A DNA stretch of 64,000 nt from Arctopsyche grandis (Eukaryota; Arthropoda; Insecta; Trichoptera; Hydropsychidae), in assembly GCF_051622035.1 (NCBI RefSeq), contig NC_135367.1, positions 28,040,001-28,104,000 of the forward strand. Reading direction: 5' to 3'. Position 1 is the stretch's first letter, and the number at the start of each line of letters is the position of its first letter. Shown here in pieces: positions 3,463-45,621 of this stretch. The translations under genes and the position numbers were made by a program. The notes under the pieces are model-generated. The model searched no databases. It was not told where the DNA came from and saw only the letters and a list, made by a program, of their open reading frames with translations.

Positions 3463-4293
3463 ATTAGGAAGAGGCTTATTCGGCATAATGTGCATGCTGC
3501 CCATATAAATAATATTTGGAACAACTGGTCTAATTTCTCCCAAAATTGGATGAACGTTCATGAACAACATATCAGCATCCCGTGTGATTTCATCGACTGA
3601 TCTGGTATTCATTCCAAAGATTTTTTTGGCAGATGCGTCAAACAATGAAACCAATTCAATATAATAGATATATATGTACTTTAAATCGTAGAAAATTGCG
3701 TATAGCCTTTGCCAAAAGTCTAAATCTCCAAATTGTTTTGATGCAACGTCAGGATACAGAATCGGATTCGAAGGATTTCCAAACGCATCGAAGATTTGAA
3801 CAAGCACACCGAATGACGATATGAGGATCATGCTACAGTTGAAGTGATCTTTTAATGGAAAGACTGCAGGTAAAAGTATTTCGAAAAAGCACAAATCAAT
3901 TTTTTCCTCCGGATCGTGGATTAAGCATTGCATGGCAGGGGTTTTGAGCTGATTTTCACCAATCATTATCAGTGTCTTGAAAAATTCTTTGTACAATTTG
4001 TACATTATAGGATTATTGTTTTTTAATCTGAATCTAAGGTAGTTCTCATTCCATGTTTTGTATGAGACATCGCCTACGTCTATTTCTGTCAGTGTTGGAA
4101 TCCTTTCTTCGTATGCAACTGGATTAGTGGTCATCGAAACTACGTGATGTCCTCGTTTGGCCAAAGTTGACATCAAAGCCCTAAATACTACTTGATGACT
4201 TATGAATGGTGTAGGGAAAATTCCTAGGATTCTGGCACCAGAATAAAAACCCACAGCAAAAAACACAAGGTAAATATAAGGGAACTTAAAAAT
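3463..4293 (-). CDS. UGT N-terminal exon E1 (start codon lost)
   Basis: This is a UDP-glycosyltransferase N-terminal exon for the acceptor-binding half of a membrane-bound detoxification enzyme. The minus strand reads through SGARILGIFPTPFISHQ, a DPEEKIDLCFFE segment and ILISSFGVLVQIFDAFGNP to LPN, then a GTAAGT donor at 3462-3457. From the position matching the ATG of neighbour E2, the exon is 831 bp, an exact codon multiple like its siblings. That codon is ATT here (4293-4291), whereas E2 has ATG with nearly identical flanks. No in-frame ATG lies before the mature domain. It is either a recent loss of start or uses another start. No downstream UGT exon is present, so it should splice to exons outside the window. 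Confidence 0.75.
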
Positions 4294-5187
4294 TTTGAAT
4301 CGTTTTAATGTGAGAGATTAGAAGCAACTGACATCTTAATACATATTTACACACATATATAGAGTTGTAATAATAACTATGTTGCATTTTGATCTTTGCG
4401 ATTGAACTTTATACGGACTTAAATAGTATTTCAAGTCTTACGACAGACATTTCAATAAAAAACAAGATGAATTATAGTTTGCATTAAGGAGACAAATGAT
4501 TGTCATTTTACTACAAATGCATTTACATACTTTTAAAAGTCTTGATCGTAATAAGATAAATGATTTTTTATAATAATATTTTTCTTGTTTTTGAAACTTA
4601 TGCTGCCTACTGTTTACTATTTTGGCAATGAATAGTTGAATTGATCAATTAACTCTAGGCATATCATCGCCCGTATTTTTGAATCAATAACTTATAAAAT
4701 TGTTTTAAAATCGTTCACAAAATTGACAAGCCTTCAACCATAAACAAAATGACACGAGTCAGGTTTGTGAAAACATACAAAGTTTATTGAATTGTTTTAT
4801 AGATTGAGAAAAATAAAATACGCTATCAACGAATTGGCATCAATTGTAGGGGTCATCAACTTTCCACTATACATACATGTTTGTATTTTTAATGATAAAT
4901 TAGTATGCATTTGATGGCCTTACAAAGTTACGGATATAATTTGAATTATTGCGTGAACGGTATTTTATTATTAGAAACATTATATGTGATGACAAAGTTA
5001 TGTTGAAATGCCACTGATACATTTCTAGCCGTATTCAAAAGTTATATGCGGAGTTAGTGATGTTGTACTAGTCTAAAGTAGTAATAATAAATAATATATA
5101 CAGCGAGTCGTCATGTGAGATAAATAATATTAATATTAATCTGCTTTACATTTTAACACGTTTATCAAAACAATATGAGTACTCGCT
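4294..5187. repeat. Tandem duplication unit, copy 1 (spacer E1-E2)
   Basis: This spacer is nearly identical to 6025-6916. The duplicated block extends on both sides into exon sequence: roughly 4190-5470 matches 5930-7200, an offset of about 1.74 kb. It holds no gene of its own, but it should contain whatever promoter drives exon E1. Confidence 0.85.
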
Positions 5188-5193
5188 ACTTAC

Positions 5194-6024
5194 TGATGGA
5201 AGAGGTTTGTTAGGTCTAATGTGCATATTTCCCAGGTAAATAATTCCAGGAACAGTGGGTTTGATCGATCCGAGAAGTGGTGACTCGTTTAAAAACATCA
5301 TATCGGCATCTTTTCGAATTTCATCCACAGGTCTGCAGTTTTCGCCAAAGATTCTTCTCGCATAAAAATCAATCATTGGTAACCATATCATACTATAACG
5401 GTATCTGTAGTTGAGGTCATGGATCACCGAATTCAACCTGTTCCAAAAGGTTAAGTCGCCCATGTACGAAGTGAGAAAATCCGGATAGAGAATCGGATTG
5501 GAAGGATTTCCGAAAGCCTCGAAATCTTGCAGTCCTGCTGTCATGGAAGATATGAGGATCATGCTGCAGTTGAAATGGTCCTTGATTGGAAAAGCCGTCG
5601 GAACAAAAACTTCGAACAAACACAAGTCGAATTTTTCAGACGGATCGTTCAGTAAACTTTTCATCGCAGACGTTTTCATTTGAATTTCCAACAAATCAGC
5701 CACGAATGTGATGTATTCTTGATATACAGAGATGCCTTTTGTTTTCTTCTCTTTTACGTCAACCAATTTGAATTCTTTATTGAATTTCTCGTAAGATATA
5801 TCGTGAACGTCTATCTGTGTCAGGTTTGGTATTTTTTCCTCATATTTGACTGGGTCAGTCGTCATGGTGACAACATGATGTCCTCTTCTCGCCAAAGCTT
5901 CCATGAAATAACGAAATACGACTTGATGACTTATGGATGGTGTAGGGAAAATTCCTAGGATTCTAGCACCAGAAGAAAAACCCACAGCAAAAAACACAAG
6001 GTAAATATAAGATAACGTAAACAT
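5194..6024 (-). CDS. UGT N-terminal exon E2
   Basis: This intact 831-bp exon (277 codons) starts at ATG 6024-6022 and ends at a TCA|GTAAGT donor (5193-5188) in phase 0. It encodes a hydrophobic signal peptide (about residues 1-19) and then ARILGIFPTPSISHQ. The His of the SISHQ motif (about residue 33) is at the position of the catalytic base in GT1-family UGTs. FDLCLFEVFVPTAFPIKDHF and LYPDFLTSYMGDLTFWNRL segments follow. Role: the acceptor-recognising half of an ER-lumen UDP-glycosyltransferase that would glycosylate small lipophilic compounds. The sugar-donor half is not encoded here. Its first part is almost the same as E1 and its second half almost the same as E3, so it looks like a chimera from unequal crossing-over. 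Confidence 0.88.
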
Positions 6025-6916
6025 TTTGAATCGTTTTAATGTGAGAGATTAGAAGCAACTGACATCTTAACACATATTTACACACATATATAGAGTTGTA
6101 ATAATTACTATGTTGCATTTTGATCTATTTGATTGTACTTTATACGGACGTAAATAGTATTTCAAGTCTTACGACAGACATTTCAATAAAAAACAAGATG
6201 AATTATAGTTTGCATTAAGGAGACAAATGATTCTCATTTTACTACAAATGCATTTACATACTTTTAAAAGTCTTGATCGTAATAAGATAAATGATTTTTT
6301 ATAATAATATTTTTCTAGTTTTGAAAACTTGTGCTGCCTACTGTTTACTATTTTGGCAATGAATAGTTGAATTGCTCAATTAACTCTAGGCATATCATCG
6401 CCCGTATTTTTGAATCAATAACTTATAAAATTGTTTTAAAATCGTTCACAAAATTGACAAGCCTTCAACCATAAACAAAATGACACGAGTCAGGTTTGTG
6501 AAAACATACAAAGTTTATTGAATTGTTTTATAGATTGAGAAAAATAAAATACGCTATCAACGAATTGGCATCAATTGTAGGGGTCATCAACTTTCCACTA
6601 TACATACATGTTTGTATTTTTAATGATAAATTAGTATGCATTTGATGGCCTTACAAATTACGGATATAATTTGAATTATTGCGTGGACGGTATTTTATTA
6701 TTAGAAACATTATATGTGATGACAAAGTTATGTTGAAATGCCACTGATAATTTCTAGCCGTATTCAAAAATTATATGCGGAGTTAGTGATGTTGTACTAG
6801 TCTAAAGTAGTAATAATAAATAATATATACGCCGAGTCGTCATGTGAGATAAATAATATTAATATTAAGCTGCTTTACATTTTAACACGTGTATCAAAAC
6901 AATATGAGTACTCGCT
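6025..6916. repeat. Tandem duplication unit, copy 2 (spacer E2-E3)
   Basis: This is the second copy of the block at 4294-5187, with only scattered substitutions and small indels. The high identity of non-coding sequence points to a recent duplication. No gene is contained. Confidence 0.85.
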
Positions 6917-6922
6917 ACGTAC

Positions 6923-7374
6923 TGATGGAAGAGGTTTGTTAGGCCTAATGTGCATATTTCCCAGGTAAATAATTCCAGGAACAGTGGGTTTGATCGATCC
7001 GAGAAGTGGTGACTCGTTTAAAAACATCATATCGGCATCTTTTCGAATTTCATCCACAGGTCTGCAGTTTTCGCCAAAGATTCTTCTCGCATAAAAATCA
7101 ATCATTGGTAACCATATCATACTATAACGGTATCTGTAGTTGAGGTCATGGATCACCAAATTCAACCTGTTCCAAAAGCTTAAGTCGCCCGTGTACGGAG
7201 ACATCATGTTGTCATGGTGACAACAAGATGTCCTCTTCTCGCCAAAGCTTCCATGAAAGAACGAAATACGACTTGATGACTTATCGAAGGCGTGGGAAAT
7301 ATTCCGAGGATTCTTGCTCCATTTGAAAGCCCTATAATACAGCACACAAGATAGATAAAACGACACGGAAACAT
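6923..7374 (-). pseudogene. UGT N-terminal exon E3, internal deletion
   Basis: The first part (ATG at 7374-7372; FIYLVCCIIGLSNGARILG and on to VVTMTT) and the last part (GDLSFWNRLNLVIHDL to LPSV) of a UGT exon are joined directly near 7203. About 130 codons of the middle are missing. The joint changes frame and gives an immediate TGA in the N-terminal frame. The donor is GTACGT, not the GTAAGT of its siblings. The 3' half is almost identical to E2, while the signal peptide is closer to E12. The joint lies at the right edge of the duplicated block, so duplication and deletion are probably one event. Not functional. Confidence 0.85.
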
Positions 7375-8773
7375 TTTGAGAACGTTTTCGGACTGGTTGT
7401 AACACGCGAGTGATGATTTTAGCATTGGATTTATAATTTATTTATAAATTGATACGATTTATATCAAATAGATAATAATGTCATGGTTATGAAATTAGTG
7501 TTGAAATAATTACGCGATCATTTATATTATAATATAATTTTTAGTAGTTTAGATCAGCTTTTCTCAACCTGGGTCAACATGGCCCCCCTTGGAGGTCCAA
7601 ACTCTCTCAGGAGAGAGGGTTTGGACCTTCTATTACATACAAAACTTCGTTGGTTATTGAGGGGTAATTGTCTTAATCGTGTTGTTATACTTTGGAACAG
7701 TATTGTGTTATTTATGAATGACAACCAATTTTGGGAAAATATGGTTGGTACAATACGCGATACATTTTATTTATCAGATAGATATATTTAAGAAATTTAA
7801 TTTTTAAACGAACAAGGAAAATGTTGTAATCTGATTGATTGAAAATATAATAAACATGGCAGCTAAATATGGGGTCAATTATTAATGTTAGTAACTTGCC
7901 ATTTATTTTAGTAAAAACTAAAAAAAATGGCAGTAACTTTTTTATATATAAATTAATCAATTAATAAAGTCTGTGAATATTTTTAATAGGCTCTTCAGAA
8001 TGTCCGTTTTGTAGCATGAGAAAATCACGTGTTTTAATTTGAAAAAAAGTTTCTTTGTATTTAATAACACAATAGAACTTCATCGTATTAAATGACGATC
8101 CAACTGACAAAATAAACATTGTATATAATTACTGAATAAAAATTATAATACCTGATATATTTAAAATTATTTAAAGTTATTCATCAATTAATTACAGCCC
8201 GTAATTTTCGACGATTCAAAGCAAATATATCATTGTTTTGATAATATTATTTGTTTTTATCATGAAATTAAACGTTTAAATTTGAACTATAGACTAAAAA
8301 TACTAATAATATAATGGAAAAGTGTCACGTAAAAAAACTGATTTTACCATAACTAGTTAACGTACAATAATTCACTTTAATCAATATATGCATACGTAAA
8401 TCAATTTCAAGGCTTTTAGAAGTTATTCGTATGACGTTAAACGATTTTAAACAATAGTCAGTAAAATTCTAAAATAATAGAAAAAGCATAAAAACTCGTT
8501 GTCAAAGTGTCAAGTTAATGATATATGAAACTATCATCCATTGCAGGTCAATGTGTAATGACTTTTAGACAGCTCCTACTTAGAATTTTATTTTTTACTT
8601 ATCGGTTTCCCTGATAGGTCTTTGACATAAATTTAATATAAAAAAAAAATAGCTCTGATCATAAGATATGGTTTTTTATCTATTTGAAATTAAGTAACAC
8701 GTATAAATTAAAAGTAACACGTCAGGTATTCAAAAATTTCGAATTATATCAAAGAGAATAAAAAAATAAGGAT
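7375..8773. other. AT-rich spacer; hAT-like terminus near 7555
   Basis: No gene is recognised. Around 7555-7600 the text CAGCTTTTCTCAACCTGGG resembles a hAT/Charlie-type terminal repeat, but I found no partner end. The short inverted pair GGTCCAAACTCTC / GAGAGGGTTTGGACC lies at about 7592-7628. The rest is AT-rich. Confidence 0.4.
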
Positions 8774-8779
8774 ACTCAC

Positions 8780-9257
8780 ACATGAAAGAGGTTTTTTATG
8801 TTTCATATGAAGATTTCCCGTATAAACAATCCCAAAAAGGGTAAGTCGAATTCTCCTTGGCAATATTTGCACATTAAAAACAACATATCTGCGTTTGCTC
8901 TAATTTCATCCATAGGTCTGGAATTTTCATCAACGATGTTCCTCGCGTCTGCATTTATTATAAGAACCCATTTCATTTAGTAGCGATATATATGGCTTAG
9001 ATCGTGAAACATCAAATGAAGCCTTTGCCAAAAATTGAGCTCTCAAAATAACGGTGTCAAGTAATCAAGGCATAAAGTGGGATGTGCAGAGCTTCCGAAT
9101 GTGTCAAAATCTTGAATACTTTCGGTCAATGATGATATTACTGACCCTGATTGGTAAACGCGATTGGAATCAAAGCTTTAAATAAACACAAGTAGAACTT
9201 TTCAGACGGATCGTTTCATTTCAGGTGTGTTCAATTGAAATTCTTCCACTTATATTT
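8780..9257 (-). pseudogene. UGT N-terminal exon E4, 3' fragment
   Basis: The minus strand matches the last three fifths of a UGT first exon, from the PSEKF region to the end, followed by a GTGAGT donor (8779-8774). Several indels and stops break the frame. The remaining 5' part of the same exon lies at 10275-10546. The two are separated by about 1 kb of a dispersed repeat, so the exon was split by an insertion. Confidence 0.8.
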
Positions 9258-10274
9258 ACTTTATCTATGTACGTAGTAACAATAGATTAAGTTTTATGCG
9301 AAAATTCGAACTCGAGATTTTGATTGATTCGAACTCAGAATCCATTACTGATCAAGTTTTCATGATCTAGAAAAAATGTGTGTGTGTGTGTATTTTGGGG
9401 ATTTTTTGAACACCATTAGTCCTATCGAACTAAAACTTAGTATCAGTTACTGAAATTCTTACCGATACGACGTAATTTTTTTTAAATTTTTAAATTGACC
9501 GGAAATGGTACCTCCCCTTATAGGTATCCTCTTTTTTTAAGTTTTTGAATTAAATTAACACCCAAACAACTGATTCGGATTGAAATTTTATAAATATAAT
9601 ATAAATAATAATTATTATACATAACTCTATATTTTTTAAATATTTTTATCTGAACCGGAAGTAGTACTTTTACTCTAGAGAATCGAGGTTTTTTATGTTT
9701 TTCTCAGAAACCTTTCAGTGTATTGAACTGAAATTTCATAGCTACAAGTTTAAGCTTCATACCAAGTTATGTATAAAATTTGGTAAGCATCTCTCAACTT
9801 AAAGTGGCAGTGAACTTTTGTTTTATTTTTCTTCGACTATTTTTTTCGACACCGTAAACATCTGTGCTCGTCACAAAAATATTCAAGTATAATTCTTGTA
9901 TCAATGTGATGAAAATAAAAAAAAAATACTAAATTAAACCGGGATTTTTTCCTATTCAAAAGGTCAAAAATGTTGTGCCCACCACTCTATCCACACCCCT
10001 AAACGTATCAAGCTGAAAATTTATATTTGTTTTTTTTTTATGTGCTAACTAAGAGCTGATAAGGGTTTGGTCAGAATTCGTAGACCGGAAGCAGTATGTT
10101 TTTTTAAAACAATTTCATTATTTTATTTTGACCTTTTAAATTATTTTAATCTTTTTGTTATTTATTGTGTATAATACTGATAGTGATATTAATTAATAAA
10201 AAAAAATTGAACGAAATCCGACAACCGGAAGTAGAACTTTTTTATACATTTTTTGAAATATATCTATCGTATCC
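9258..10274. repeat. Dispersed repeat H, copy 1 (inside UGT exon E4)
   Basis: This stretch of about 1 kb shares long blocks with 15120-15615 and 18975-19562. Common text includes TTTTTTGAACACC, GTCCTATCGAACTGAAACTT-like sequence, and repeated ACCGGAAGT-type words followed by AGTACTTTT or GGCAGTTTAC. It has no recognisable coding capacity. Its ends here coincide with the break in UGT pseudo-exon E4. Class unknown. Confidence 0.7.
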
Positions 10275-10546
10275 GCAAAGTTGAAAACTTTATTTAATTT
10301 CTCGTATGATATATACATACATACGAGTATATCGTTTACGTCTATTTATGGACAGGTTTGGTATTTATTCATCAGACCTGACTGGATCGGTTGTTATTGC
10401 AATTATGCTATGTCCTCGTCTTGCCGAAGCCTCAAACAAAGAGCTTGGTGATTTATATAACGCGTTGAAAATATACCAAGGATTCTGACTTCATTTGAAA
10501 ACACCACAGAATACTACAAAAGGTATAAATAAAAAAACGGCAACAT
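10275..10546 (-). pseudogene. UGT N-terminal exon E4, 5' fragment
   Basis: From a former ATG at 10546-10544, the minus strand shows a signal-peptide-like start and then VRILGIF, matching the start of the other UGT exons. Further on, the sequence matching RRGHHVVTMTTDPVKYEE is damaged. It ends where repeat H begins. It is the missing front of the fragment at 8780-9257. Confidence 0.78.
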
Positions 10547-10817
10547 TTCGAGAACCGATTCTGAATGGTTGTGCAAAACCAATGATGTTTGAAAAGACAA
10601 TTTATATTGTCATCGTGTTTTTAAAAAAAATATAGCTGAATTACGTTGGAAAGTGTGCTGGTGAACTTAATTACTTAATTCAATAGACATAATGTGTACA
10701 AGTTATTAGAACGGGTTCAAAAAAGGATGTCGAACTAAGATGTACATATGTTTGTACAATCAGTAGGTGCAAAGAATGTCTCTGTTCAATAATAAAAAAA
10801 TTTATAAGAGTACTTAC

Positions 10818-11651
10818 TGATGGAAGAGGTTTAATAGGTCTGATATGCATGCTTCCCATGTAAACGATTCCAGGAACAGTAGGTCTGATTCCTCCTAAAA
10901 GTGGATGTACATTCAAAAACAGCATATCAGCTTCCTTTTGGATTTTATCCACGGATCGAACACTTTCACCAAACATTTTTTTCGCATTATTGTCTAATAG
11001 TGGAACCAGTTGAAAATAATACATGAATCTGTATCTGATATCCAAATACGTCAAGTGCAACCTCTGCCAAAAGTCCAAATCACCCAAATACAAAGCGGTG
11101 AAATCAGGATACAGAACCGGATTTGAAGGGTTTCCAAACGAGTCGAAATCTTGCAGACTTCCAGACAATGACGATATAAGGATCAAACTGCAGTTGAAAC
11201 GATCTTTGATTGGATTTATATGAGGAGCCAGAGCTTCAAAGAAACACAAGTCGAATCTTTCTGATGGATCGTTCAGCAGTTTTTGCATCGCTGGAGTATT
11301 CATCTGCATCTCAATTATTGAAGACATCACTGTATAGAACAATCTGATTAGTTCTGTAGGTGTTGTATCGCTTTCATGTATTTTGATGAAGTCGAACTTT
11401 TTATTCCATTCTGTATAAGAAATTTCTTCAACGTCTATTTTGGTCAGGGTTGGGATCTTTTCTTTGTAGATTTTCGGGTTGGGTGTCATTGTAACAACGT
11501 GGTGTCCTCGTTTTGCCAAATTCTCCATCAAAGAACAGAAAACTAATTGATGGCTTATAGATGGTGTTGGAAAAATGCCGAGTATTCTACTGGAGCTATT
11601 CACAGCTCCTAATACACAACATGCGAGAAAAACTATATGAAAACACACCAT
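10818..11651 (-). CDS. UGT N-terminal exon E5
   Basis: This intact 834-bp exon (278 codons) ends at TCA|GTAAGT (donor 10817-10812). I place the start at ATG 11651-11649, giving MVCFHIVFLACC. This matches the start and length of E6 and E7, although the frame is open further upstream to 11738. A signal peptide of about 19 residues precedes SSRILGIFPTPSISHQ (His about residue 34). The exon carries the segments RFDLCFFEALAPHINPIKD and DLDFWQRLHLTYLDIRYRF. It would form the acceptor-binding half of an ER UDP-glycosyltransferase after splicing to C-terminal exons not present in this window. It belongs to the same subgroup as E6, E7 and E8. Confidence 0.88.
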
Positions 11652-12077
11652 CGCGAATATTATTCGCATGGAAACTCGAAGGCAAATGACGTGGTAGTAC
11701 ATGAGTAGTTTCCTTTTAAATGGAATTATATTTAACATATGTATTTGTGAATATAGGTGTGTGAGATTATATTATGAGCTAAACTGGTACGTTTAGTCAA
11801 GGTTCAAATGGGTACATACATATATTTATATATGTATACATAAATTGATATATTTATATATGTATTATAATTGCCGGTCATTACTATGACATGAGAAACA
11901 CTTGCGATTATATGCAATTATTTCGTTACAAAAATAAAAATTACTTCCTATACAAAAAACTTAGACAATTATTTTAATCGATCCTATCGAAATTATTTGA
12001 ATTTAATACTAAAACGCACAAGACTTTTGTTCCACTGTCCTTATAAAGGTTGTTGAGACACTTGAACCGTATTTAAC
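11652..12077. other. AT-rich upstream spacer of E5
   Basis: The spacer contains TATATGTATACATA-type simple repeats and no gene. It probably includes the promoter of exon E5, but no core promoter could be called with confidence. Confidence 0.4.
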
Positions 12078-12980: not shown

Positions 12981-13697
12981 GTGCTTTTCACTGCTTGACT
13001 ACGTATATTTAATTATCTAGCGAATACACATGCTGTCCGTACGCGGTTAATGTTCCCGAAAGGAATAACAAGTTGAAATTCGTAACAAGTACATATTTAT
13101 AATATATGTATAGTCGGCCTAAAAACTAAATGAATGCGACATTATATCCAAGAACATATTATTAGTGAGCAAAATAAAATATAACCTAATCTAAAATTTT
13201 AGGTAATACGGACGTACGTAATTGTAATTGTTAGATTAATGTTAATTATTATCTATTTAGTATCAACTCAACAATAACAAGTTCATATATGTATAGTCGG
13301 CCTAAAAAAATAATGAATGCTACATTATGTCGAAGAACATAAGTTGTGTACACACTTACTAGACAGTGTAAACTGATTCGAGATTTGACGCTCTTACTGT
13401 GAAATATATGTACATAGTTAAGAGTAATAGAGCGTATATCTAATTGGTTCGTAAATTTAGTAAAATAATTGAATCGGAAAAACAAAATATAGCCGTATAA
13501 TATAATACCTGAAATTATAACAATAATATTGGAATGGTTTCAATATTAAAATACTATTTATAATTTCACTGAATCATGAAACTTAATATTTTAATACCAT
13601 AATAATAATAATCCTTTGTTGTGACAGCAACAATGCTATCAACTAACCAATTTTTAATATTCATATAAATTGAATGTAATATAAACAAATAAAGGCA
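12981..13697. repeat. Downstream flank of E6, duplicated near 15.7 kb
   Basis: Blocks such as AACAAGTTCATATATGTATA, AGTCGGCCTAAAAA and GAGCGTATATCTAATTGGTTC recur at 15708-16513. The flank therefore belongs to the E6/E7 tandem duplication. No gene is present. Confidence 0.65.
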
Positions 13698-13703
13698 ACT
13701 TAC

Positions 13704-14537
13704 AGACGGGAGAGGCATAGTAGGTTTGATATGTAAGCTTCCCATATAAACAATCCCCGGAACAGCAGGTCTAATTGCTCCGAAAATTGGATGCAGATTT
13801 AAAAACAACATATCGACATCTTTTTGGATTTCATCTACAGATCTAATATTTTCACCAAAAACTTTTTTCATCCTTTCATCTAGCAATGGCACCATTTTGA
13901 AATAGTACATGTGCCTGTACATGACATCTAAATATGTCAAATGTAACCTCTGCCAAAAGTTTAAATCATCCATATACGGAGACATCATACCAGCATACAG
14001 AACCGGATTTGAAGGATTTCCGAGTGCGTCAAAATCTTGCAAGGTTCCCGATAAAGATGATATCAGGATCAAGCTGCAGTTGAAATGATCCTTGATTGGG
14101 TTCACATGAGGAGCTACACTTTCGAAGAAACACAAGTCAAACTTTTCTGATGGATCGTTCAGCAACTTTTGCATCTTTGGAGTCTTCATCTGCATCTGTA
14201 CCATCGAACACATCAGTCTGTAGTATTTTTCCATGAACTTTTTTGGTGATTTGGTTTCTTCGTTTATTTTAACGAAGTCGAACTGCTGCTTCCATACTTT
14301 GTATGAAAGTTCGTGTACGTCTATTTGTGTTAGAGTTGGTATTTTTTCTTTATAAATTATTGGGTCGGTTGTCATCGTGACGACGTGATGTCCACGTTTA
14401 GCCAAATTCTCCATTAAGGCACTGAAAACTATCTGATGGCTTATAGATGGGGTGGGAAAAATCCCTAGTATTCTGCTAGATCCATTCACAGATCCTACAA
14501 CACAACACGCGAGAAAAATTAAACGAAAATTAACCAT
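13704..14537 (-). CDS. UGT N-terminal exon E6
   Basis: This intact 834-bp exon starts at ATG 14537-14535 and ends in phase 0 before GTAAGT (13703-13698). A signal peptide (MVNFRLIFLACCVVGSVNG) is followed by SSRILGIFPTPSISHQIVF (His34), KRGHHVVTMTTDP, EKFDLCFFESVAPHVNPIKD and DDLNFWQRLHLTYL. The product would be the lumenal acceptor-binding half of a UGT. It is very similar to E7 in coding and flanking sequence, so the two arose by a recent tandem duplication of about 2.8 kb. No C-terminal exon lies between them. Confidence 0.88.
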
Positions 14538-15119
14538 TCTGAATCTTATTCAGTTAGATACTAACGTTTGATTAACGTTTTATTTACCTATATATGTATG
14601 TCTGCTTTTTATCTACGTTATATCTATACGTTTTATCAATGATATGGGTGCAAGGTTGGATTTTTTAGTGACCCTAGAGAGTTTTTTCATTAAATCGACA
14701 CTGTTGTACACAGCCTAGTGATAACAGCTTAAAAAAATTTGTACCATGTGAAATGGCACACGACGATTTTCAAATAAAAAATTATTACACGAAAACAATA
14801 TAAAAATAAACCATTTTTTTTATAGTGAGCATTGCAGAAAGACTGAGGTATTGCCTAATATTTTAAAGTAAATATATATGAATTAAAACTTTTATTAAAG
14901 TTGGGAAATTTGTGATGATAAAAAGATGATATTCATCAAATATTCTGTGTTTTTAAAATGAAACTGCAGAATTTTGCAACGGTGAAACATTGCATGAAAC
15001 TGAAGAGAATTAAGAGAAGTCAAGAAGCATTCTTCGTTTTGGAAAAATAATAAATATAATTCTGAATAGTGGGTGATGATTTTACAATACTTTATCTAGT
15101 AACAATACATGAAGTTTTG
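14538..15119. other. Upstream region of E6, duplicated upstream of E7
   Basis: The first ~200 bp (CTAACGTTTGATTAACGTTT, then CAAGGTTGGATTTTTTAGTG) match the region just upstream of E7 closely, so a shared promoter is likely. The remainder is AT-rich with no gene. Confidence 0.55.
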
Positions 15120-15615: not shown

Positions 15616-16513
15616 AAATATGTATGTATGCTCTTTACGAGAAAGTTCAAGTAAAATCTATAATCTAATATTAGTAAATTTATACAATAACTACCAGTGC
15701 GAAGTATGTATGTACATGTTCATGAAAGGAATAATAAGTTAACATTCATAACAAGTTCATATATGTATGTTTAGTCGGCGTAAAAACTGAATGATTGCGA
15801 AATTATATCGAAGAACATATGTTTTATTAATGAGTAAAATAAAATATAGCCTAACCTAACCTAACCTAAAATTTTAAGTAATTTGGATATACGTACGTTG
15901 CATTATTGTTAATTATTATCAATTTCGTATCAATTCAACAATAAATTAGTTATTTGAAAACAACCAGTTATATTCTTGAGCATTAAATTCATTGGAAGAA
16001 CAACGTGAAACTTTGGTCAGCTATCAAACCACATAAATTTCATTCATTTTCACATATTTACTAGTCCACAGCAGCAAGTGTATGCATTTGCGCGTCAGTA
16101 TATACTTTCTCTGGTAAAAGTATCTGCAAAATCCCAAGCTTTAGTTAAAAATCTAGGCTTTTGTACACACTTATAAGTCAGTGTATACTAATTTGAGATT
16201 TGACGCTATTACTGTGAGATATACGAAGTTCATAGTAATAGAGCGTATATCTAATTGGTTCGCAAATTTAGTAAAAGTTTTGAATCGGAAAACCAAAATA
16301 AAACCGTACAATATAATACCTGAATTCTCAACAATAATATTGGAAAGGATTCAATAGCAAGATTCTATTTATACACAATCGTTTTCACTGAATCGTGGAA
16401 CCTAATATTTTAATAACATGATAATAATTCTTTGTTGTGACAGCAACAATGCTTTCAACTAACCAATTATTAATATTCATATAAATTGAATGTAATATAA
16501 ACAAATAAAAGCA
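15616..16513. repeat. Downstream flank of E7, with (CCTAA) patch
   Basis: This is the counterpart of the E6 downstream flank at 12981-13697. It contains a short run of CCTAA units at about 15849-15869. No gene is present. Confidence 0.6.
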
Positions 16514-16519
16514 ACTTAC

Positions 16520-17353
16520 AGACGGAAGAGGCATTGTAGGTCTAATATGCAAGCTTCCCATATAAACGATCCCAGGAACAGTAGGTCTAATTTCTCCGAA
16601 AATTGGATGCACATTTAAAAACAACATATCGACATCTTTTTGGATTTCATCTACGGATCTTATATTTTCACCGAAAACTTTTTTCATCCTTTCGTCTAGC
16701 AATGGGACCATTTTGAAATAGTACAAGTATCTGTATACGATATCTAAATATGACAAATGTAACCTCTGCCAAAAGTTTAAATCATCCATATACGGAGACA
16801 TCATATCAATATACAACACCGGATTTGAAGGATTTCCGAGTGCGTCAAAATCTTGCAAGGTTCCCGTTAAAGATGATATCAGGATCAAGCTGCAGTTGAA
16901 ATGATCCTTGATTGGGTTCACATGAGGAGCTACACTTTCGAAGAAACACAAGTCGAACCTTTCTGATGGATCGTTCAGCAACTTTTGCATCTTTGGAGTC
17001 TTCATCTGCATCTCTACTATGGAACACATCAGTGTGTAGTATTTTTCCATGATATTTGTAGGTGATGTGGCTTCTTCAGTTAATTTGACGAAGTTGAACT
17101 GCTGCTTCCAAAATTTGTATGAAATTTGTTGTACGTCTATTTGGTTTAGAGTTGGTATTTTTTCTTTGTATACTATTGGGTTGGGTGTCATCGTGACGAC
17201 GTGGTGTCCTCGTTTTGCCAAATTCTCCATTAAAGCACTGAAAACTATCTGATGGCTTATAGATGGGGTGGGAAATATCCCAAGTATTCTGCTGGATCCA
17301 TTCACAGATCCTACAACACAACACGCGAGAAATATGAATCGAAAATTGACCAT
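16520..17353 (-). CDS. UGT N-terminal exon E7
   Basis: This intact 834-bp exon runs from ATG 17353-17351 to the GTAAGT donor at 16519-16514, phase 0. It has the same layout as E6: a signal peptide of about 19 residues, SSRILGIFPTPSISHQ with His34, ERFDLCFFESVAPHVNPI, and a C-terminal stretch ending PTVPGIVYMGSLHI and LPSV. Differences from E6 cluster around residues 55-100, the region expected to shape acceptor choice in UGTs. That is consistent with divergence of substrate range after duplication, but this is inference. It probably splices to shared exons outside the window. Confidence 0.88.
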
Positions 17354-17532
17354 TCCGAATCTTAATCAGTTAGATACTAACGTTTGATTAACGTTTTATT
17401 TACCTATATATGTATGTCTGTTTTTTTATCTACGTTATATCTATACGTTTTATCAATGATATGGGTGCAAGGTTGGATTTTTTAGTGACCCTAGTGAGTT
17501 TTTTCATTAAATCGACACTGCTGTACACAGCC

Positions 17533-17610
17533 TACAACACAACACGCGAGAAATATGAATCGAAAATTGACCATTCCGAATCTTAATCAGTTAGATACTA
17601 ACGTTCGAGT
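17533..17610 (-). pseudogene. Orphan duplicate of the E7 5' end
   Basis: About 78 bp repeat the stretch 17305-17385 almost exactly. They include the ATG and signal-peptide codons of E7 plus its immediate 5' flank (TTCCGAATCTTAATCAGTTA). No exon body follows, so it is a stray first-exon tip 0.2 kb upstream of E7. Confidence 0.75.
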
Positions 17611-19562: not shown

Positions 19563-20200
19563 ATCTTCACCGAATATATTTTATATTTTCACCGAAAACT
19601 CTTTTCGTGTTTGCATCTAATAGTGGAACATATTTGAAATAGTACGAATATCTATACATTATATGTAAGTATGTCAAATAAAGCCTTTGCCAGAAATTCA
19701 AGCCATCCGAATACGTAGACATCAAATCAGGATATAGAATCGGATGTGAAGGATTTCCGAGTGAATCGAAATCTTGTAGAGCAGCAGACAAGGACGATAT
19801 CAGGATTAAACTGCAGTTGAAACGATCTCTGATTGGAATTACGTGAGGAGGCATGCTTTCTAGGAAACACAAGTCAAATCTTTCCGATGATCGGTCAACA
19901 ACTTTCGCATGCCTGGAGTTTTCATCTGCTTTTCCACTATTGAACACATCACTGTGAAATATTTTTCAGTGATCTTTGTATATGTTGGAGCTTCTTTGAT
20001 GATTTTAACAAAGCTGAAGTTTTCATTCCATTCTGCGTAATAAAGTTCTCCTACGTCTATTTTGGTTAGATTTGGGATATTTTCTTTATAGATTTGGGGA
20101 TCCGTGGTCATTGTAACAACGTGGTGTCCTCGTTTAGCCAAATTTTCCATTAAAGCACTGAATTCTATTTGGTGGCTTATCAAAGGTGTGGGGATAAGCC
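19563..20200 (-). pseudogene. UGT N-terminal exon E8 (truncated, frameshifted)
   Basis: The minus strand resembles E5-E7 from PTPLISHQIEFSALMENLAK to the FGENI region. The signal peptide and the ARILGIF segment are missing upstream, and the final quarter with the splice donor is missing downstream, where repeat H begins. A single-base deletion near 19890 shifts the frame just before SSERFDLCFLESMPPHVIPI. Three separate lesions make this a pseudogene. Confidence 0.85.
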
Positions 20201-20204: not shown

Positions 20205-21239
20205 TTAAGCATTAAGTTTTTTCTGAATCATCAATTTATTTTACCAATATAAGTATATAAGAGGCAACAGATCCATATGTAAAAAGTTGGGATATTAAGA
20301 ATTAATGCAAAAATTTAATAATGCTGGATAAAAAATAACGTAATAACCGTTTGGATATTTACAAAAAGTTAAACTTTCAACACAAATCATTCTTCTTGAT
20401 ATTTTAACATTGTATGACAGGAAAAATACCTGGAATGTATTCAAATATGATGTTGTTATAAATTTTGAAATTAATGATGGGGAAAATACAATTAAAAACG
20501 TATTGTGTCGTATTATGGTGTCGAGAAATCTTTGCAATGACGTTTTACAGATAAATTGATGCAGAAATTAGTATTTACATATGAAGATATACATACATAT
20601 ATATAACAAAAAAAAAAAAAAATGCTTATACTAATCTGCGACGTTAGAAATAATATCTTTCATAGTGGAAATAATCAAATAAGGTAAAAAAAAAAATACA
20701 TGTCTGGATGTGTATGTTTTGTAATTTACTATACTGGCGATATTTCAAGCTGTTTTTGTATTTATGTATCATATAAATAAAAATATATTTCGTAATTAAA
20801 ATTGAATACTTTTATATGCGTAATGTCATATTTTCTCTTGAAAACTAGACAAACGATTTAGTCGAAACTTTTTTATTTCCCTATTTCTGAGATAAAATTA
20901 TTATATCATGGGTCTCAACCAAGGGAAAACTATTAATTATGGGGTTAAGCTATTTTTGTAATTTATTAAATTTGAATATCATGTATTTTGTATCCTGCTC
21001 GTACACACGCAAGTAAAACCATGTACGAGCAGGATGCAAGCTGTGTGCAAGCAGTAATAAGGCCATGGGACTTGAGATAACACATTATGAATGTTGGAAA
21101 TGAATGATCCTCTTTCTAATCACTTCAAGTGATCAAATGACGTTTAAGCTTATCTGAGTTGATTCAAGATTGACATAAGTCAAAATCGCTAATGGAACAT
21201 AAAACGTTTAAATATACATAGATATTTAAAATGGAAAAA
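20205..21239. other. Spacer, duplicated downstream of E10
   Basis: AT-rich DNA with no gene. From about 20830, words such as GGGTCTCAACCAAGGGAAAA and the hairpin-forming pair TCCTGCTCGTACA / TGTACGAGCAGGA have counterparts at 23680-24150. This marks the E9/E10 duplication unit. Confidence 0.5.
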
Positions 21240-21245
21240 ACTTAC

Positions 21246-22076
21246 CGATGGAAGAGATTTGTTGGGTTTGATGTGCAAGCCACCTATGTAAATTATAGCA
21301 GGAACTATTGGTCTGATATGATCGAAGTACAAGTGCACGTTCAAAAATAACATATCGGCATCGCTTCCGATTTCATTGATCGATCTGCTATTATCTCCGA
21401 AGTATTTGGTGGCAGCATCATCAATCAGAGGTAAGAATATGTATTTGTACATTGATTTGTACACAACATATTCAAGAACAACATAGAACTTCTGCCACAA
21501 GTTCAGATCACCATGGTAAGGTGGCATCAATCCCGGGTACAGAATGGGATTAGAAGGGTTTCCGAAAATTTCAAAGTGCTGCAGGTCTCCAGAATAGGAC
21601 GATATGAGGATCAAACTGCAGTTGAATACGTCTTTAATTGGGTACATGTTAGCAGTCATGGCTTCGATGAAGCAAAGGTCGAATTTTTCATTTGGGTCAT
21701 GTAGCAAACGCTTCATATCAGGACTGTTTAGTTGCAAGTTTGTTATTTGCAAAAGCGCGTCGTATAGGTTGTAAGTTAAATCAATGGGTGATGTACTTTC
21801 TTCTTTTATTTTGGTAAAGTTCATAATTCTTTGCCATATTGGGTAGGATATGTTGTGTACGTTTATCTGGGTAAAGTTTGGGATGCTTTCTGCTAGGTCG
21901 TAGGAGTCGGTGGTCATAGTGACTACATGGTGTCCTCTTTGGGCCAGGTTCACCATCAAACATTCAAACACTTTTTGGTGACTTATTGCAGGTACTGGAA
22001 AAACTCCCAGTATTCTAGCACTGTTCGTTGTTACTATAGCGTAGCACACGGTTACTAAGATACTGAACTGCTTCAT
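21246..22076 (-). CDS. UGT N-terminal exon E9
   Basis: This intact 831-bp exon ends in phase 0 before GTAAGT (21245-21240). I chose ATG 22076-22074 (MKQFSILVTVCYAI) because the sister exon E10 starts there. The open frame extends eight codons further upstream. Signal peptide, then SARILGVFPVPAISHQKVF (His33), QRGHHVVTMTTD, EKFDLCFIEAMTANMYPIKD and GDLNLWQKFYVVLEYVVY. E9 and E10 form a distinct subgroup (PVPAISHQ in place of PTPSISHQ). The expected role is the acceptor-binding half of a UGT, completed by C-terminal exons outside the window. Confidence 0.88.
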
Positions 22077-22261
22077 GTTTTTGTATATGAAAATCACTCA
22101 AAAAGTAATTGCTCTTTCAGAACGTCAAAACACTAATTTGATCACTTAATTTGCAATTCTATATACACTGTGATGTCATAAGCATAATATTGTTATAAGT
22201 TTACTGCATATTCAATATAATTTTCATAGAAATGTGACATTTTAAGTCGTATCACGACATA

Positions 22262-23786: not shown

Positions 23787-24057
<271 letters not shown>

Positions 24058-24356
24058 CCTGCGTTTGTATCCCTCTCAAACACATTCAAGTAATACTATG
24101 TGTGAGAAAGACGCAAGTTGGCGTGTGTGCAAGCAGAATGCAGGGTAGAGACCTACCAGCATTAACAAAATAAGCATTAATTTAAGCATCAGCTTAAGGA
24201 ATTGAGATTAAGAATTATGTAAACTTGGTCATAGGTACTGATATATAAACTTATACGAGTAGATGTGAGATTGACATAAGTTGGTTGGGTAATTTTTAAA
24301 ATCACTTTTGGAGCATAAAACGTTTGAATATGCATATTAACAAAGAACAAACTTAC

Positions 24357-25189
24357 CAATGGAAGAGATTTGTTGGGTTTGATGTGCAAGCCACCCATGT
24401 AAATGATAGCAGGAACTATTGGTCTGATATGATCGAAGTACAGGTGCACGTTCAAAAATAACATATCGGCATCGCTTTCAATTTCATTGATTAATCTGCT
24501 ATTATTTCCGAAGTATTTGCTGGCAGCATCCTCAGGATCGGAGGTAAGAATATGTGGTTGTATAATAATTTGTACCCAACATATTGGAGAACAACAAAAA
24601 ACCTCTGCCACAAGTTCAGATCACCATGGTAAGGTGGCATCAATCCCGGGTACAAAATAGGATCAGAAGGGTTCCCGAACATTTCAAAGTGCTGCAGGTC
24701 TCCAGAAAAAGACGATATGAGGATCAAGCTGCAGTTAAAGATGTCTTTGATTGGATACATGCCGGGAGCCATGGCTTCGATGAAGCATAGGTCGAATTTT
24801 TCATTTGGGTCATGCAACAAACGCTTCATCTCAGGACTGTTCAGTTGCAAGTTTGTTATTTTCAAAAGCGTGTCGTACAGGTTAAAAATTAAATGAATGG
24901 GAAATAGGTTTTTCTGTTTAATTTTGACGAAGTTCATAGAGCTGCCCCATACTCGGTATGACATGTCGTGTACGTTTATCTGGGTCAAGTTTGTGATGTC
25001 TTCTGTCAGTTCGTAGGAGTTGGTGGTCATGACGACTACATGGTGTCCCCTTTGAGCTAAGTTCACCATTAAACATTCAAACACTTTTTGGTGACTTATT
25101 GAAGGCACTGAAAAAACTCCTAATATTCGAGCACTGTTCGTTTTAACTATGAAGTAGTACACGATTAATAAGATACTGATCTGCTTCAT
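24357..25189 (-). pseudogene. UGT N-terminal exon E10 (2-nt frameshift)
   Basis: From ATG 25189-25187 to the GTAAGT donor at 24356-24351 the exon measures 833 bp, two more than E9 and not a codon multiple. The first 200 or so codons read well: SARILGVFSVPSISHQKVF, EKFDLCFIEAMAPGMYPIKD, GDLNLWQRFFVVLQ. Near 24531-24542, extra bases relative to E9 shift the frame. The remaining sequence (SRLINEIESDADMLFLNVH) continues in another frame to the donor. Otherwise it is undamaged, so the lesion is recent, unless it is an assembly error. Confidence 0.8.
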
Positions 25190-25290
25190 CTTTTATATAT
25201 GGAAATCACTCATAAAATAAGTAATTGTTCTTCCAGAGCGTGAAAGCACTATTTTGCACTTCTAGATAATTGTGATGTCATAAGCATATT

Positions 25291-25774
25291 ACACTGTTCG
25301 ACACGAAAAATGGTTCATAGACGAGATATGACTTTTCTTATAGATAAATAAATATTGGAATATATAGTCGGGTATTTTATCTTTCATTTTTAGTACTTTT
25401 CAGCTTTCATTTATCTCTAAGTAGTCGTCCAGTTCAAATCAAAAGTCAAAAGTACGTATTTTCACTTGGGATTTTTTCCCACTGTTAATACGATTTTATA
25501 TTGAGTATTTTCTATTAAAACATGTTTATTGGAATAGTGTTTTGGCCACACTATTTTTTTTTCGTTTAAAACGGTTAAAAGATTTTGAGACGTTGACCGA
25601 ACAACACCAAGATATAGAAAAATTGCGTGGTTTAAAATCACATACATTTATCTCCGAATCTAGAGCCAATCAACATTTTTTATTTCCAGATTCGTGTTCA
25701 CTAGGTATAGATCTATAAGAAAAGTCATAACTCGTCTCTGAACCAAAAAAAAATCGTCATTTGTCGAACAGTGT
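25291..25774. mobile_element. TIR element family G, copy 1
   Basis: It is bounded by inverted ACACTGTTCGACA / TGTCGAACAGTGT ends. It contains GGGTATTTTATCTTTCATTT, CAAATCAAAAGTCAAAAGTA and CCGAACAACACCAAGATATA, words also present at 37692-38136 and 50011-50354. No transposase is present. The flanks suggest a short TTA or TATT target duplication, not decisive. Confidence 0.72.
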
Positions 25775-26154: not shown

Positions 26155-26979
26155 TGATGGTAGAGCTTTGTTGGGCAAAATATGCATACTGCCCATGAAA
26201 ATAATTCCAGGAACGACAGGTCTGATTTCACCCAAAAGTGGTTGTATGTTCAGGAATAACATGTCGGCATCATTTTCAATTTCATTGATTGGTCTGACGT
26301 TCGTTCCGAATATATTTCTCGCATATTCTTCATATACGGGAAGAAGCTTCCAATAGTACAGATATCTATAAGTGAGATCGTGGATGATACAGTCAAGTCT
26401 CTGCCAGAAATCCAGGTCTCCCAAGTACGGAGAGATAATATCCGGGTAAAGAATTGGATTAGTGGGATTCCCAAGTGCGTCAAAGTTTTGAAGAGTTCCA
26501 GACATGGACGAAATGAGGATCATATTACAGCCAAAGCGGTCCTTGAACGGAAAAGATAATGGAACCAGGGCTTCGAAGAAGCACAGGTCAAACTTTTCAT
26601 TTGAATTATTCAGCAAATTTTGCATCTCAGGTGTGTTGAATTGTATGTTGGCTATGTGCAACATCAATGAGTAGAACTTAATGACCAAAGTCATTGGTCC
26701 AGGATTTTCCTCTCTCATTTTAACGAAGTTGAAGAATTTGTTCCATTCTGTATAGGATATTTCATGCACGTCTATTTGTGATAAGTTTGGTATGGTTTCT
26801 TTGACTGGATCTGGAGTCATCGTTACGATTTCGTGTCCTCTCTTCGCCAAATCAATCATCAGTGCTCTGAAAACCACCTGATGACTTATAGAAGGTGTTG
26901 GGAAAATTCCGAGGATTCTGGCTCCATTTGAAATCCCCAAAACACAACACAAGAGTAATAAAAAACGACACTGAACCAT
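26155..26979 (-). CDS. UGT N-terminal exon E11
   Basis: This intact 825-bp exon (275 codons) starts at ATG 26979-26977 and ends in phase 0 before GTAAGT (26154-26149). Signal peptide MVQCRFLLLLCCVLGISNG is followed by ARILGIFPTPSISHQVVF (His33), KRGHEIVTMTPDP (two codons shorter here than its neighbours), EKFDLCFFEALVPLSFPF and GDLDFWQRLDCIIHDL. It encodes the acceptor-binding half of a UGT. It is the last exon before an 18-kb repeat-rich gap in the array. Confidence 0.88.
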
Positions 26980-41354: not shown

Positions 41355-41554
41355 TAGTTATGCACTGTTCGATTTAGTGATGTTTTAGTTTTAATTATTT
41401 TCTTTTTAATTTGTTTGTACCATATTTATGTAATTTGTAAAAATCTATAATTGGGCTCAGATGTTATTTTGTTTAATTTACTCTTTATTTTTATGCATTT
41501 TTACATACCTTTTATACAGTTCACATGGTTTTCGTGTAAGTGGTAATTTTTTAT

Positions 41555-41879: not shown

Positions 41880-42264
41880 ATCATAATTTTGATTGAAACC
41901 CCAATCATTGAAATCATTTTGATTGAAATTTTAATCCCACACATTTGTACATTTGTTGTTGAAATATTGTTTTAATTGCCTTTTTATTTTAATAAATTAA
42001 TTTTATTTAATTAATTATATATCTATTTAATTATTTATTATATTTCAGTACATTATTTGTTTATATACATTTATTTTACTTGAGTTTTTTTTATTATACA
42101 TAGTTTTTTTACTAAAGCTTTTATATACATTTATTTTGTTACATGAGTTTTGTTACTGAAGTTTTTTATATACGTTTATTTTTCATTACTCAAGTTTTTT
42201 ATATACATTTATTTTTATATATCTTATTACATCTGTTGTTTGTTGATTTTTCAATAAATAAATA

Positions 42265-42476
<212 letters not shown>

Positions 42477-42479
42477 GTA

Positions 42480-44640
42480 GGTGTGTTCTTTAAATTTGAC
42501 ATTGAGATTATGTAGTGAGTTCGTCGACACTGATTACAAAAGGGTTCAAAAGTAGACCACACAATTAGCCAAATTTTAATGACTAAGTACGAGCATGCGT
42601 ACCGATATTCAATTTCATACATATGCATATACCCATTAGATATAAGTATGGTTGGAAGGGTAGGCAGGGATGCCATACATAGCAAGTAATAGGCAAACGT
42701 TGGCAAATTATTTCCAAGTGCGCAATTCGTGTGGCGGTAGGCGTGTCGTTAAATGAAAGGCAGCCATTGTGGCATGCCGGGCGTGAACGGAAACAATTAT
42801 CGGTCGCGCGTCCCCAAGTTCGGGAACAACTGGAAAGTTTCACGGGCGAATTCGCCCTTGTGAATATTTGTTTTCCCTCTGCGTATTGTTAATCAAACGC
42901 AACGCGACACATGCTCCGATCGTATACCGGCTATAACGAGCTACCGTCCTACATACAACGAGCGTATCGTTACGCCAACTTGCAAACCTCGTAAACCCCA
43001 CCGTTGATCATAAATAAATATTTTCAAAATTTAAAACTATTTCATAATCCAACTATACATATGTATTTAACCAGCAACGTGGACTAGTGATAAGCATATT
43101 GTTGCGTAGGGGTGGGTGGGGGATCCAAGTAACAGGCGAAAGTCGCTTCACAACATTTTATTTTTCGTCCACTGCTTGTAAAATTCTATTACGTTTGTGG
43201 GTGTCGTGCGAGCGAGTAAAATTGCAGATTAAGATCGGAAAATATCTTGGATACAGTGAAAATTTATTGATTCACTGACGCGTAGAGTTTAATTTAAAAA
43301 TTATGAACTATTAGCTCAACTTATGTATGTCTTCGACAGGTTTGAGTCTCATTCCGTCACCTCCGCCCCACGTGTCTCATCCAGTTGTCTCTTGTGTACG
43401 TTAAAACTGAGGCAATGTCCATTTATTCAAAGTATTGTTGCGTAGGGGTAGGTGGAGGATCCAAATAAAAGGCCAAAGTCGCTTCACAGCATTTATTGGG
43501 TGATTAAGGAGATCCACGCATAGCTAGTGCTCCGTTCAGAATGTCTTGATATGGGGTTTGCTACAAATGATTGCAAAACACCCGGCTGCATGCTCATTTC
43601 GATTGAATTTTAACTGTTTGAATTTCAGCATGTACGAAAGAAAAGATATTCATAGGGTTGCGCTGATGACATTTCGATGTACACTGATGATTGGCAATTC
43701 TTAAAATTGAGTTGGATCTTTCTGGCAAGTTTAAAATGGCAAAAGCCGAGACAAAAGTATGAAATGAGCATGCAGCGAAATAAGCATGCGCCCGCTTGGT
43801 TTGCAATCGTTTGTAGCGCAGGGCTTGATATGGTCTAAGTACCTCCTTATAAAGGACAGGTCGCTCAGGGCATCTTCTTCGACACGTTTGTTTACCTATT
43901 GCTATAGTCACGTACCAGATATGTGGTCTCACGGTCTCGGGGAAGTCAGTTCTGAGAATTCTAGTGGGAAGTGGCTGGATGCTGTTACCGACCACTAAGT
44001 CCATCCATTGTTTAGCCGACTTGCACTTAGTCTGGAGATAATCCTCGAAAACAAATTATAACGGTCGCAGGAACGCACGCTCGTCCAGATTCTGGGAAAT
44101 AGCGATGCCTAATCCGAGGGTCTCCTTTGCTTCACTCGAAACCACTTCAGCCGCCTGATAATTCCGATTGCGGCGTATGTTACAATATTATGTTTTCGAG
44201 CGAAGTGGTCACAGTTCGATTTCCTTGGTTTGTGACTCCAAGTCGATCGATTCCTTTCAGAGTTTGCCAATTTTTCTGATTTTATTATTACTAGTCTCTT
44301 ATTAGCTCGTTTTCTATTTTTACGTCTGACAAAATTTGGTTTCTTATCCGATCGTTTTCTAACCGTTTGTTTTGTTTGTTGACCGGGGTTTGTTTATGCA
44401 TAAATATGGGTATTGGGTATTGTAATTTAAACATACACTTTTGCTTACGTCACGCGATGTAAAAATACGAATTATTCATATTATCTAATTCCGATTCCGA
44501 TTCTGGCTTCGAGGTTGATTTCGGGTTTTATAATTTTATTATTATTTTTTATTGCATAATTTAATTGGCATAACCGATTCCCAATTTCTGTTTCAGTTAC
44601 GATTCCGATTAATCATATCCTATGTAGATGTAGCTTTATT
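42480..44640. other. Intergenic region upstream of E12 donor side
   Basis: No UGT C-terminal exon was found. Two related 60-80 bp segments (GTTGCGTAGGGGTGGGTGG at 43103 and GTTGCGTAGGGGTAGGTGG at 43436) may be retroelement remnants. A SINE body fragment lies at about 44200-44285. The reversed CTAG end of repeat F is at 44289-44350. Confidence 0.4.
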
Positions 44641-44790
44641 TTAAATCATGTATAAATCCGAAAGCATCAGTTGAAATTTCAACGGCATAAAACTAGTAAA
44701 TATGTATGTAAAGGTCATCGAAACAGTTACTGTTTGTACCCGATCAATTCTGAGTAACAGTGAATTTGAAAGGAAAAAATATCTACTTAC

Positions 44791-45621
44791 CGATTTAAGT
44801 TGTTTGTTTGGCTTGATATGTATCAGTCCCAGATAAACAATCCCAGGAACAGTAGGTCTGATCATTCCTAGAAGTGGTGGCATATTTAAAAACATCATAT
44901 CAGCATCTTTTCGGATTTCATCTACAGGTCTGGTATTATGACCAAAAGTTCTTTTGGCATAGAAGTCAATGATATTTACCCATTTGGTATTATAAAGGTA
45001 TCTGTATTTTATATCGTGGAACAGCAAATCCATCCGTTGCCAAAAGTCGGCATCGCCAAAATGCCGGGTGAGGAAATCCGGATACAGAATGGGATGTGCA
45101 GGGTTTCCAAATGCATCAAAGTCGTGTATACATCCGGTATGTGACGAAATTAGGATCATGCTGCAGTTGAAACGGTCTTTGATTGGATAAGCTGTTGGAA
45201 TTGAAGCTTCGAAGAAACACAAGTCGAACTTCTCAGACGGATCATTCAGCAGACGTCTCATCTCAGGTATGTTCATCTGAATTTCCGTCATGCCACTCAT
45301 GAATATGTTGTACTCTTCAAATAAAGCGATCAATGGTGTGTTCCTCTCTTTTATCTCGACAAAGTTGAAAGCTGCGTTCCATTTCTCATATGATATATCA
45401 TGTACGTCTATTTGTGTCAGAGTTGGTATTTCTTCCTCATACTTGACTGGATCAGTAGTCATGGTGACTACGCGATGTCCTCGCTTTGCCAAAGCCTCCA
45501 TTAAAGGACTAAATGTTACTTGGTGACTTATTGAAGGTGTGGGAAATATTCCGAGGATTCTGGCACCATTTGAAAACCCCACAATACAGCACACAACATA
45601 GATAAAACGATGAAGCAACAT
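44791..45621 (-). CDS. UGT N-terminal exon E12
   Basis: This intact 831-bp exon (277 codons) runs from ATG 45621-45619 to the GTAAGT donor at 44790-44785, phase 0. Signal peptide MLLHRFIYVVCCIVGFSNG, ARILGIFPTPSISHQVTF (His33), KRGHRVVTMTTDP, EKFDLCFFEASIPTAYPIKD and DADFWQRMDLLFHDIKYRYL. The last codons read QLKS in place of LPS. It is the most upstream member of the array, 18 kb from E11, and no donor-domain exon lies in between. It is either the outermost alternative first exon or a gene whose other exons I failed to see. Closest to E2/E3 by eye. Confidence 0.86.

Follow-up and report, generated by a model that had tools for sequence, protein, structure and literature searches.

A UGT locus structured like vertebrate UGT1A: twelve open first exons before a single C-terminal exon set

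Why should a genome carry a row of UGT first exons with none of the exons that ought to follow them? The question is raised by a stretch of 64,000 nucleotides from Arctopsyche grandis (C13:28,040,001-28,104,000, where C13 is contig NC_135367.1), which we call the window; the assembly comprises 475,669,232 bases in 189 contigs, and the left flank of the window was readable in it. A first-pass annotation of the window had proposed alternative first exons with a shared C-terminus, as in UGT1A, and in structure this proposal is supported. The locus, array A below, is a real variable-first-exon UGT locus: twelve open first exons in one orientation, spanning about 53 kb, stand before one constant exon set (set A) with compatible splice phases and no C-terminal exon between them. 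Together the first exons, 11 of which have an ATG, and set A occupy 55.6 kb. Splicing and promoter choice are what we infer beyond this structure, and we think it very probable that the variable/constant locus works like vertebrate UGT1A.

In the window itself, tblastn with ten window frames as queries finds 15 copies or pieces of the UGT first exon, without exception on the minus strand; on these matches, chance similarity was rejected as their source. Eight copies are full-length and open (A5-A12) and seven are broken or partial. An ATG is present in seven of the eight open copies, A5 having ATT at that place, and Pfam UDPGT was matched by all six window copies that were scanned, from position 9-10 to 263-268 of 499. 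The first-pass annotation had counted twelve copies on one strand. Many minus-strand copies do exist, but the intact number in the window is eight; twelve open first exons are reached in the whole array, four of them (A1-A4) lying left of position 1. The last exon bases of the open window copies are 3463, 5194, 10818, 13704, 16520, 21246, 26155 and 44791. The donors had been placed correctly, the earlier value of 5193 and its counterparts being the first intron base and the last exon base lying one higher (5194). In all eight, the donor is GTAAGT in phase 0 at the identical codon. The copies are as follows, with lengths in amino acids (aa).

44791..45621, minus strand: A12, 277 aa, the most distal open copy; ATG, donor GTAAGT
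26155..26979, minus strand: A11, 275 aa; ATG, donor GTAAGT
24237..25252, minus strand: broken first-exon copy, matches in two frames; donor GTAAGT retained
21246..22076, minus strand: A10, 277 aa; ATG, donor GTAAGT
19570..20198, minus strand: broken first-exon copy, matches in two frames
17521..17586, minus strand: first-exon fragment, signal-peptide part, 22 aa
16520..17353, minus strand: A9, 278 aa; ATG, donor GTAAGT; 88% protein identity to A8
13704..14537, minus strand: A8, 278 aa; ATG, donor GTAAGT
10818..11651, minus strand: A7, 278 aa if begun at the ATG aligned with those of the other copies, extra in-frame ATGs lying upstream of it; donor GTAAGT
10238..10558, minus strand: first-exon fragment, N-terminal part, frames broken
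8750..9348, minus strand: broken first-exon copy, three frames
6854..7441, minus strand: broken first-exon copy, GTACGT at the donor position
5194..6024, minus strand: A6, 277 aa; ATG, donor GTAAGT
3463..4293, minus strand: A5, 277 aa, frame open; ATT in place of ATG, donor GTAAGT
1042..1449, minus strand: degraded first-exon remnant, ~30% protein identity

Where, then, are the C-terminal exons? A shared set had been expected beyond position 1, and when the sequence was extended leftward such a set was found 7-10 kb from the window: set A, a single complete set of three C-terminal exons on the strand of the array, which encodes UGT donor-domain sequence and a membrane anchor. The four further open first exons lie between it and the window. 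No N occurs in the 134 kb of C13:27,990,001-28,124,000, and assembly gaps that hide exons were accordingly rejected.

Last exon base C13:28,038,844, minus strand: A4, open first exon
Last exon base C13:28,037,911, minus strand: A3, open first exon
Last exon base C13:28,035,327, minus strand: A2, open first exon
Last exon base C13:28,032,859, minus strand: A1, open first exon
C13:28,032,512-28,032,734, minus strand: e2, constant exon of set A
C13:28,030,395-28,030,614, minus strand: e3, constant exon of set A
C13:28,030,029-28,030,308, minus strand: e4, constant exon of set A

The copies in the window could still be ordinary tandem UGT genes whose private C-terminal exons had gone undetected. 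A C-terminal consensus probe gave a best match of only E 0.70 against the window, and phmmer found no match in 2811 frames. Hidden Markov models (HMMs) were built from the genome's own 12 e2, 11 e3 and 11 e4 exons and run with filters off against the C13, C6 and C3 regions (17,276 open stretches). These models ranked the C-terminal exons of C13, C6 and C3 at the top and recovered several broken pieces in C6, and they gave zero matches in the window at E<=1. Since exon models of the genome's own making found none, tandem genes with undetected C-terminal exons were rejected for array A. The first-pass annotation had reported no sugar-donor-domain exon between the copies and had named C-terminal UGT exons between them as the finding that would speak against its reading; they were searched for in this way and did not appear. 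Genome-wide, UGT C-terminal exons were covered in part, by a Pfam search of the genome.

Could the first exons be spliced to set A in frame? The donor is GTAAGT in 11 of the 12 array first exons and GTGAGT in one, and all 12 have it in phase 0 at the same codon, as had been claimed for the copies seen earlier. The e2 acceptor of set A, TTTTTTTCAG/GAC (the slash marks the splice site), is likewise in phase 0, and donor and acceptor phases are thus compatible. Joined in silico to e2-e4, the 11 first exons with an ATG gave open frames of 508-519 aa without exception. The predicted A12 product, which is the one of the 11 that was scanned with Pfam, matches UDPGT (PF00201) from 9 to 495 of 499 in one stretch (E 2e-82) and would hold the N- and C-terminal UGT domains together; the part of it that comes from the constant exons matches human UGT2B15 (E 1.7e-34). 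The constant tail has a hydrophobic segment and then ends in KPKKS, presumably an endoplasmic reticulum-retrieval signal. One first exon compared with solved structures had no match at E 0.001. The splice junctions of the array and the joining to e2 are inferred from these sequence features.

Are the first exons far from set A still in use? A1 is the sole copy directly beside e2, at 124 bp, while seven window copies are already broken or partial and the ATG of A5 is gone, and one could suppose on these grounds that only A1 makes an enzyme and that A2-A12 are orphaned partial duplicates turning into pseudogenes. We regard this as unlikely. Eleven frames of 268-279 codons are open with ATG and donor at the observed divergence, which argues for selection: over the 66 pairs among the 12 first exons, amino-acid identity is 35%-88% (mean 51%), the proportion of nonsynonymous differences (pN) is 0.05-0.43 and that of synonymous differences (pS) is 0.19-0.83, mostly 0.5-0.8, and pN is below pS in 66 of 66 pairs. 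In a crude simulation with substitutions only, the share of frames that stayed free of stops fell from 17.9% at 0.05 changes per site to 4% at 0.1 and 0.25% at 0.2, with 0 of 2000 survivors at 0.3 and 1 of 2000 at 0.5. All 15 C13 first exons, that is, those before set A and before two further sets, B and C, retain the ISHQ-motif histidine. The position that probably holds the acidic residue of the catalytic dyad is Glu in 12 of the 15, Ala in A1 and A2, and Leu in C1. The loss of the ATG in A5 and the seven broken or partial copies indicate that decay is under way as well.

It is also necessary to ask how one first exon would be chosen among twelve. They might be mutually exclusive internal exons of a unit that is transcribed from one distal promoter, and the closeness of A3 and A4, which lie head to tail at C13:28,037,911-28,039,674, would suit such an arrangement: only ~108 bp separate the A4 donor from the A3 ATG, and any A3 promoter would therefore overlap the A4 exon. 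Internal exons require an acceptor, however, and the best acceptor-like scores within 80 bp upstream of the 12 array ATG positions were 0-10, compared with 12-13 for the three true e2 acceptors, on a simple score made for the present analysis. Moreover, 11 of the 12 have their own ATG and a signal-peptide-like start, and an initiator-like motif, TCAKTY, lies at a near-constant distance before the ATG, within 30-45 bp, in 10 of the 15 C13 first exons (nine at -38 to -42). In 2000 first-order Markov resamples, the motif count averaged 0.51 and never exceeded 4, a comparison that overstates significance because the range of -45 to -30 was set once the hits were known, the copies are related, and A5 and A6 have a common recombined upstream stretch. 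Choice among internal exons thus seems very improbable to us. Just as improbable is that a first exon is read on into its intron to give a short secreted N-terminal protein that lacks the donor domain. All intact frames do extend beyond the donor (for example, 363 aa at 10680-11771), but GTAAGT or GTGAGT is retained there in 12 of 12, the read-on tails are dissimilar except between recent duplicates, and the UGT N-terminal domain by itself does not contain the sugar-donor site. Finally, array-A transcripts that pass set A might join the constant sets further left on C13 too, namely set B, which has one first exon, and set C, which has two, and so combine the acceptor domains with three donor domains. 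The sets A, B and C lie in succession downstream of the array and on its strand, their e2 acceptors are in phase 0 in three of three cases, and set A shares 49% identity with B and 54% with C. We judge such combinatorial joining unlikely.

We favour instead alternative first exons that would be picked by promoter, which fits the constraint on their coding sequence, the TCAKTY motifs and the low acceptor-like scores before the array ATGs. Each first exon encodes a signal peptide and the aglycone-binding N-terminal domain and would have its own start site, and the three constant exons of set A encode the sugar-donor domain, membrane anchor and tail. A transcript begun at one first exon would read through the later ones, which could not be included because they lack a 3′ splice site, and the donor of its initial first exon would be joined to the e2 acceptor. 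The choice of promoter would thereby set the acceptor specificity while the donor domain stayed constant.

How did the array grow? In a midpoint-rooted tree of 21 first exons from C13 and C3, all 12 of array A fall into a single group, C1 and C2 pair (96/95) and B1 lies outside the array-A group. Among the best candidates of a genome-wide protein search, identities of at least 40% were confined to the C13 locus, save for a 54-aa stretch on C4 (44%). The array first exons are thus mutually closest at the C13 locus, from which we conclude that the array arose separately from the vertebrate clusters. Two recent duplicate units, 13344-14717 versus 16159-17534 (90.6% identity) and 21182-22189 versus 24298-25291 (84.4%), each consist of one first exon with short flanks. 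Array A probably grew by duplication of such one-first-exon units, with birth, death and recombination of copies. One further feature bears on recombination.

4200..5470, no strand assigned: recombined segment, comprising the upstream region and 5′ end of A5 and the 3′ end of A6

Over most of its length, ~4200-5470 is 93-100% identical to ~5930-7200 per 80-bp interval, despite a protein identity of just 57% between A5 and A6. The ends of the segment lie within first exons, and recombination has thus brought an upstream region and signal peptide together with another binding domain. This may have occurred by conversion or by unequal crossing-over.

Other UGT loci of the genome provide a comparison. 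The C6 cluster (3.78-3.88 Mb) is a contrast to array A in that it grew by whole-gene duplication: it holds seven complete e2-e3-e4 sets, a further set whose e4 is split and a partial e2, all of them located behind N-terminal exon matches, and some of its N-terminal exons contain stops. At C3 9.71-9.73 Mb, three first exons on the plus strand (donors GTGAGT, GTAAGT and a weak GTTGGT) precede one set and are followed, on the minus strand, by three genes that each have their own set. Sharing of the set at this locus is older or less certain, given the weak GTTGGT donor and the failure of its first exons to group. At C3:16,878,659-16,888,848, searches alone placed three UGT first exons ahead of a single C-terminal set, and constant exons may be shared there too.

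Several observations weigh against a UGT1A-like mode of operation. The TCAKTY motif, whose range was fitted to the hits, is absent at -45 to -30 from A2, A8, A9, A10 and C2, and scant space is left for a promoter of A3. A1 and A2 depart from the Glu of the other 10 array copies, having Ala at a position of possible catalytic importance. A5 is without an ATG, and the seven other defective window copies belong on this side of the balance too. A12 is ~18 kb away from A11. In the tree, the support of 94/90 for the array-A group (96% of bootstrap trees) is slightly below the tool's starred threshold, and the three first exons with a common set at C3 9.71 Mb fail to form a group.

How does array A compare with known variable/constant loci? 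In the passages of PMC1885805 cited here, this organisation of Ugt1, Gcnt2 and Ugt2a is called vertebrate-specific, and vertebrate Ugt1 is described as having separate promoters and a motif conserved upstream of them, with gene conversion scarce save in the dog. The zebrafish variable exons were cloned and are separately spliced, according to the sections of PMC2819257 on them. Array A resembles vertebrate UGT1 and zebrafish Ugt1 and Ugt2, as these sections present them, in its one-strand tandem of variable first exons that each encode a signal peptide and an acceptor domain, in the single constant set for donor domain and membrane anchor that follows them, and in the pseudogenes lying among the variable exons. 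Those clusters have their own promoters and a conserved motif at a fixed upstream place, which the TCAKTY motif before 10 of the 15 C13 first exons may parallel. Array A differs in that splicing, demonstrated by cloning in zebrafish, is predicted here, and in that recombination ends inside its first exons, whereas gene conversion is reported in those passages as not predominant in vertebrate Ugt1. It has three constant exons, as against four in UGT1 (PMC1885805) and five in zebrafish Ugt2, and since they are three and not four, array A is not a member of UGT1. Its organisation is, on the sequence features described, convergent with that of UGT1A.

Among insects, UGT321, UGT328 and UGT352 of the beetle Anoplophora glabripennis are four-exon tandem genes (PMC5105290) and resemble array A in having a long first exon followed by three short ones; the passages concerned describe them as tandem genes and do not mention shared constant exons. 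Bombyx mori UGT46A1 and UGT46A2, cited in a passage of PMC9209448 for their alternative use of exons, are an insect UGT case comparable to that predicted for array A, though with two forms only; the same source reports, in the part cited, truncated UGT33F28 transcripts. Beetle chemoreceptors with shared C-terminal exons appear in the sections cited from PMC8956072, along with a 14-gene UGT array for which those sections do not mention sharing. Variable first exons with shared constant exons occur, too, in clustered protocadherins and chemoreceptor genes (passages of PMC2819257, PMC1885805 and PMC8956072), whose proteins are unrelated. No comparable array was found in the sections covered of PMC7079503, PMC8010143, PMC2633020 and PMC11087754, and exon or splicing terms were not found in PMC7697561. 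Among the papers listed in the literature searches, which covered few subscription journals and so leave absence unproven, we recognised none that describes an insect UGT first-exon array of such size.

A layout once termed vertebrate-specific, at least in the passages cited above, thus occurs in an insect-like genome: array A has 12 open first exons, and there are two or three at each of C13 set C, C3 9.71 Mb and C3 16.88 Mb (the last by search only). If splicing proceeds as predicted, this would be a convergent widening of the detoxification range in which only the acceptor domain and its upstream region are duplicated, every product having one donor domain and one membrane anchor. Counts of UGTs by their C-terminal signature would score array A as one gene.

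Beyond the UGT exons, a BEL/Pao-like retroelement occupies 51697-58373 of the window. Its plus-strand frame at 52914-57107 (1397 aa) matches DUF1759, Integrase_H2C2 and DUF5641, with no reverse transcriptase match in Pfam at E 0.001, and it is flanked by 232-bp direct repeats (51697-51928 and 58144-58373, 97% identity) that are probably long terminal repeat sequence. The window also contains (TA)n arrays at 23794-24057 (132 copies) and 42254-42476 (112 copies), and at its right edge a plus-strand frame (63617-63943) has a Kelch motif above the Pfam cut-off and is probably an exon of a neighbouring gene. Outside the window, C13:28,121,056-28,121,957 is a GC-rich short-period repeat with long frames on both strands in AT-rich surroundings. 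Like its UGT gene structure, the plentiful TTAGG repeats of the assembly are compatible with an insect, as they are with many arthropods.

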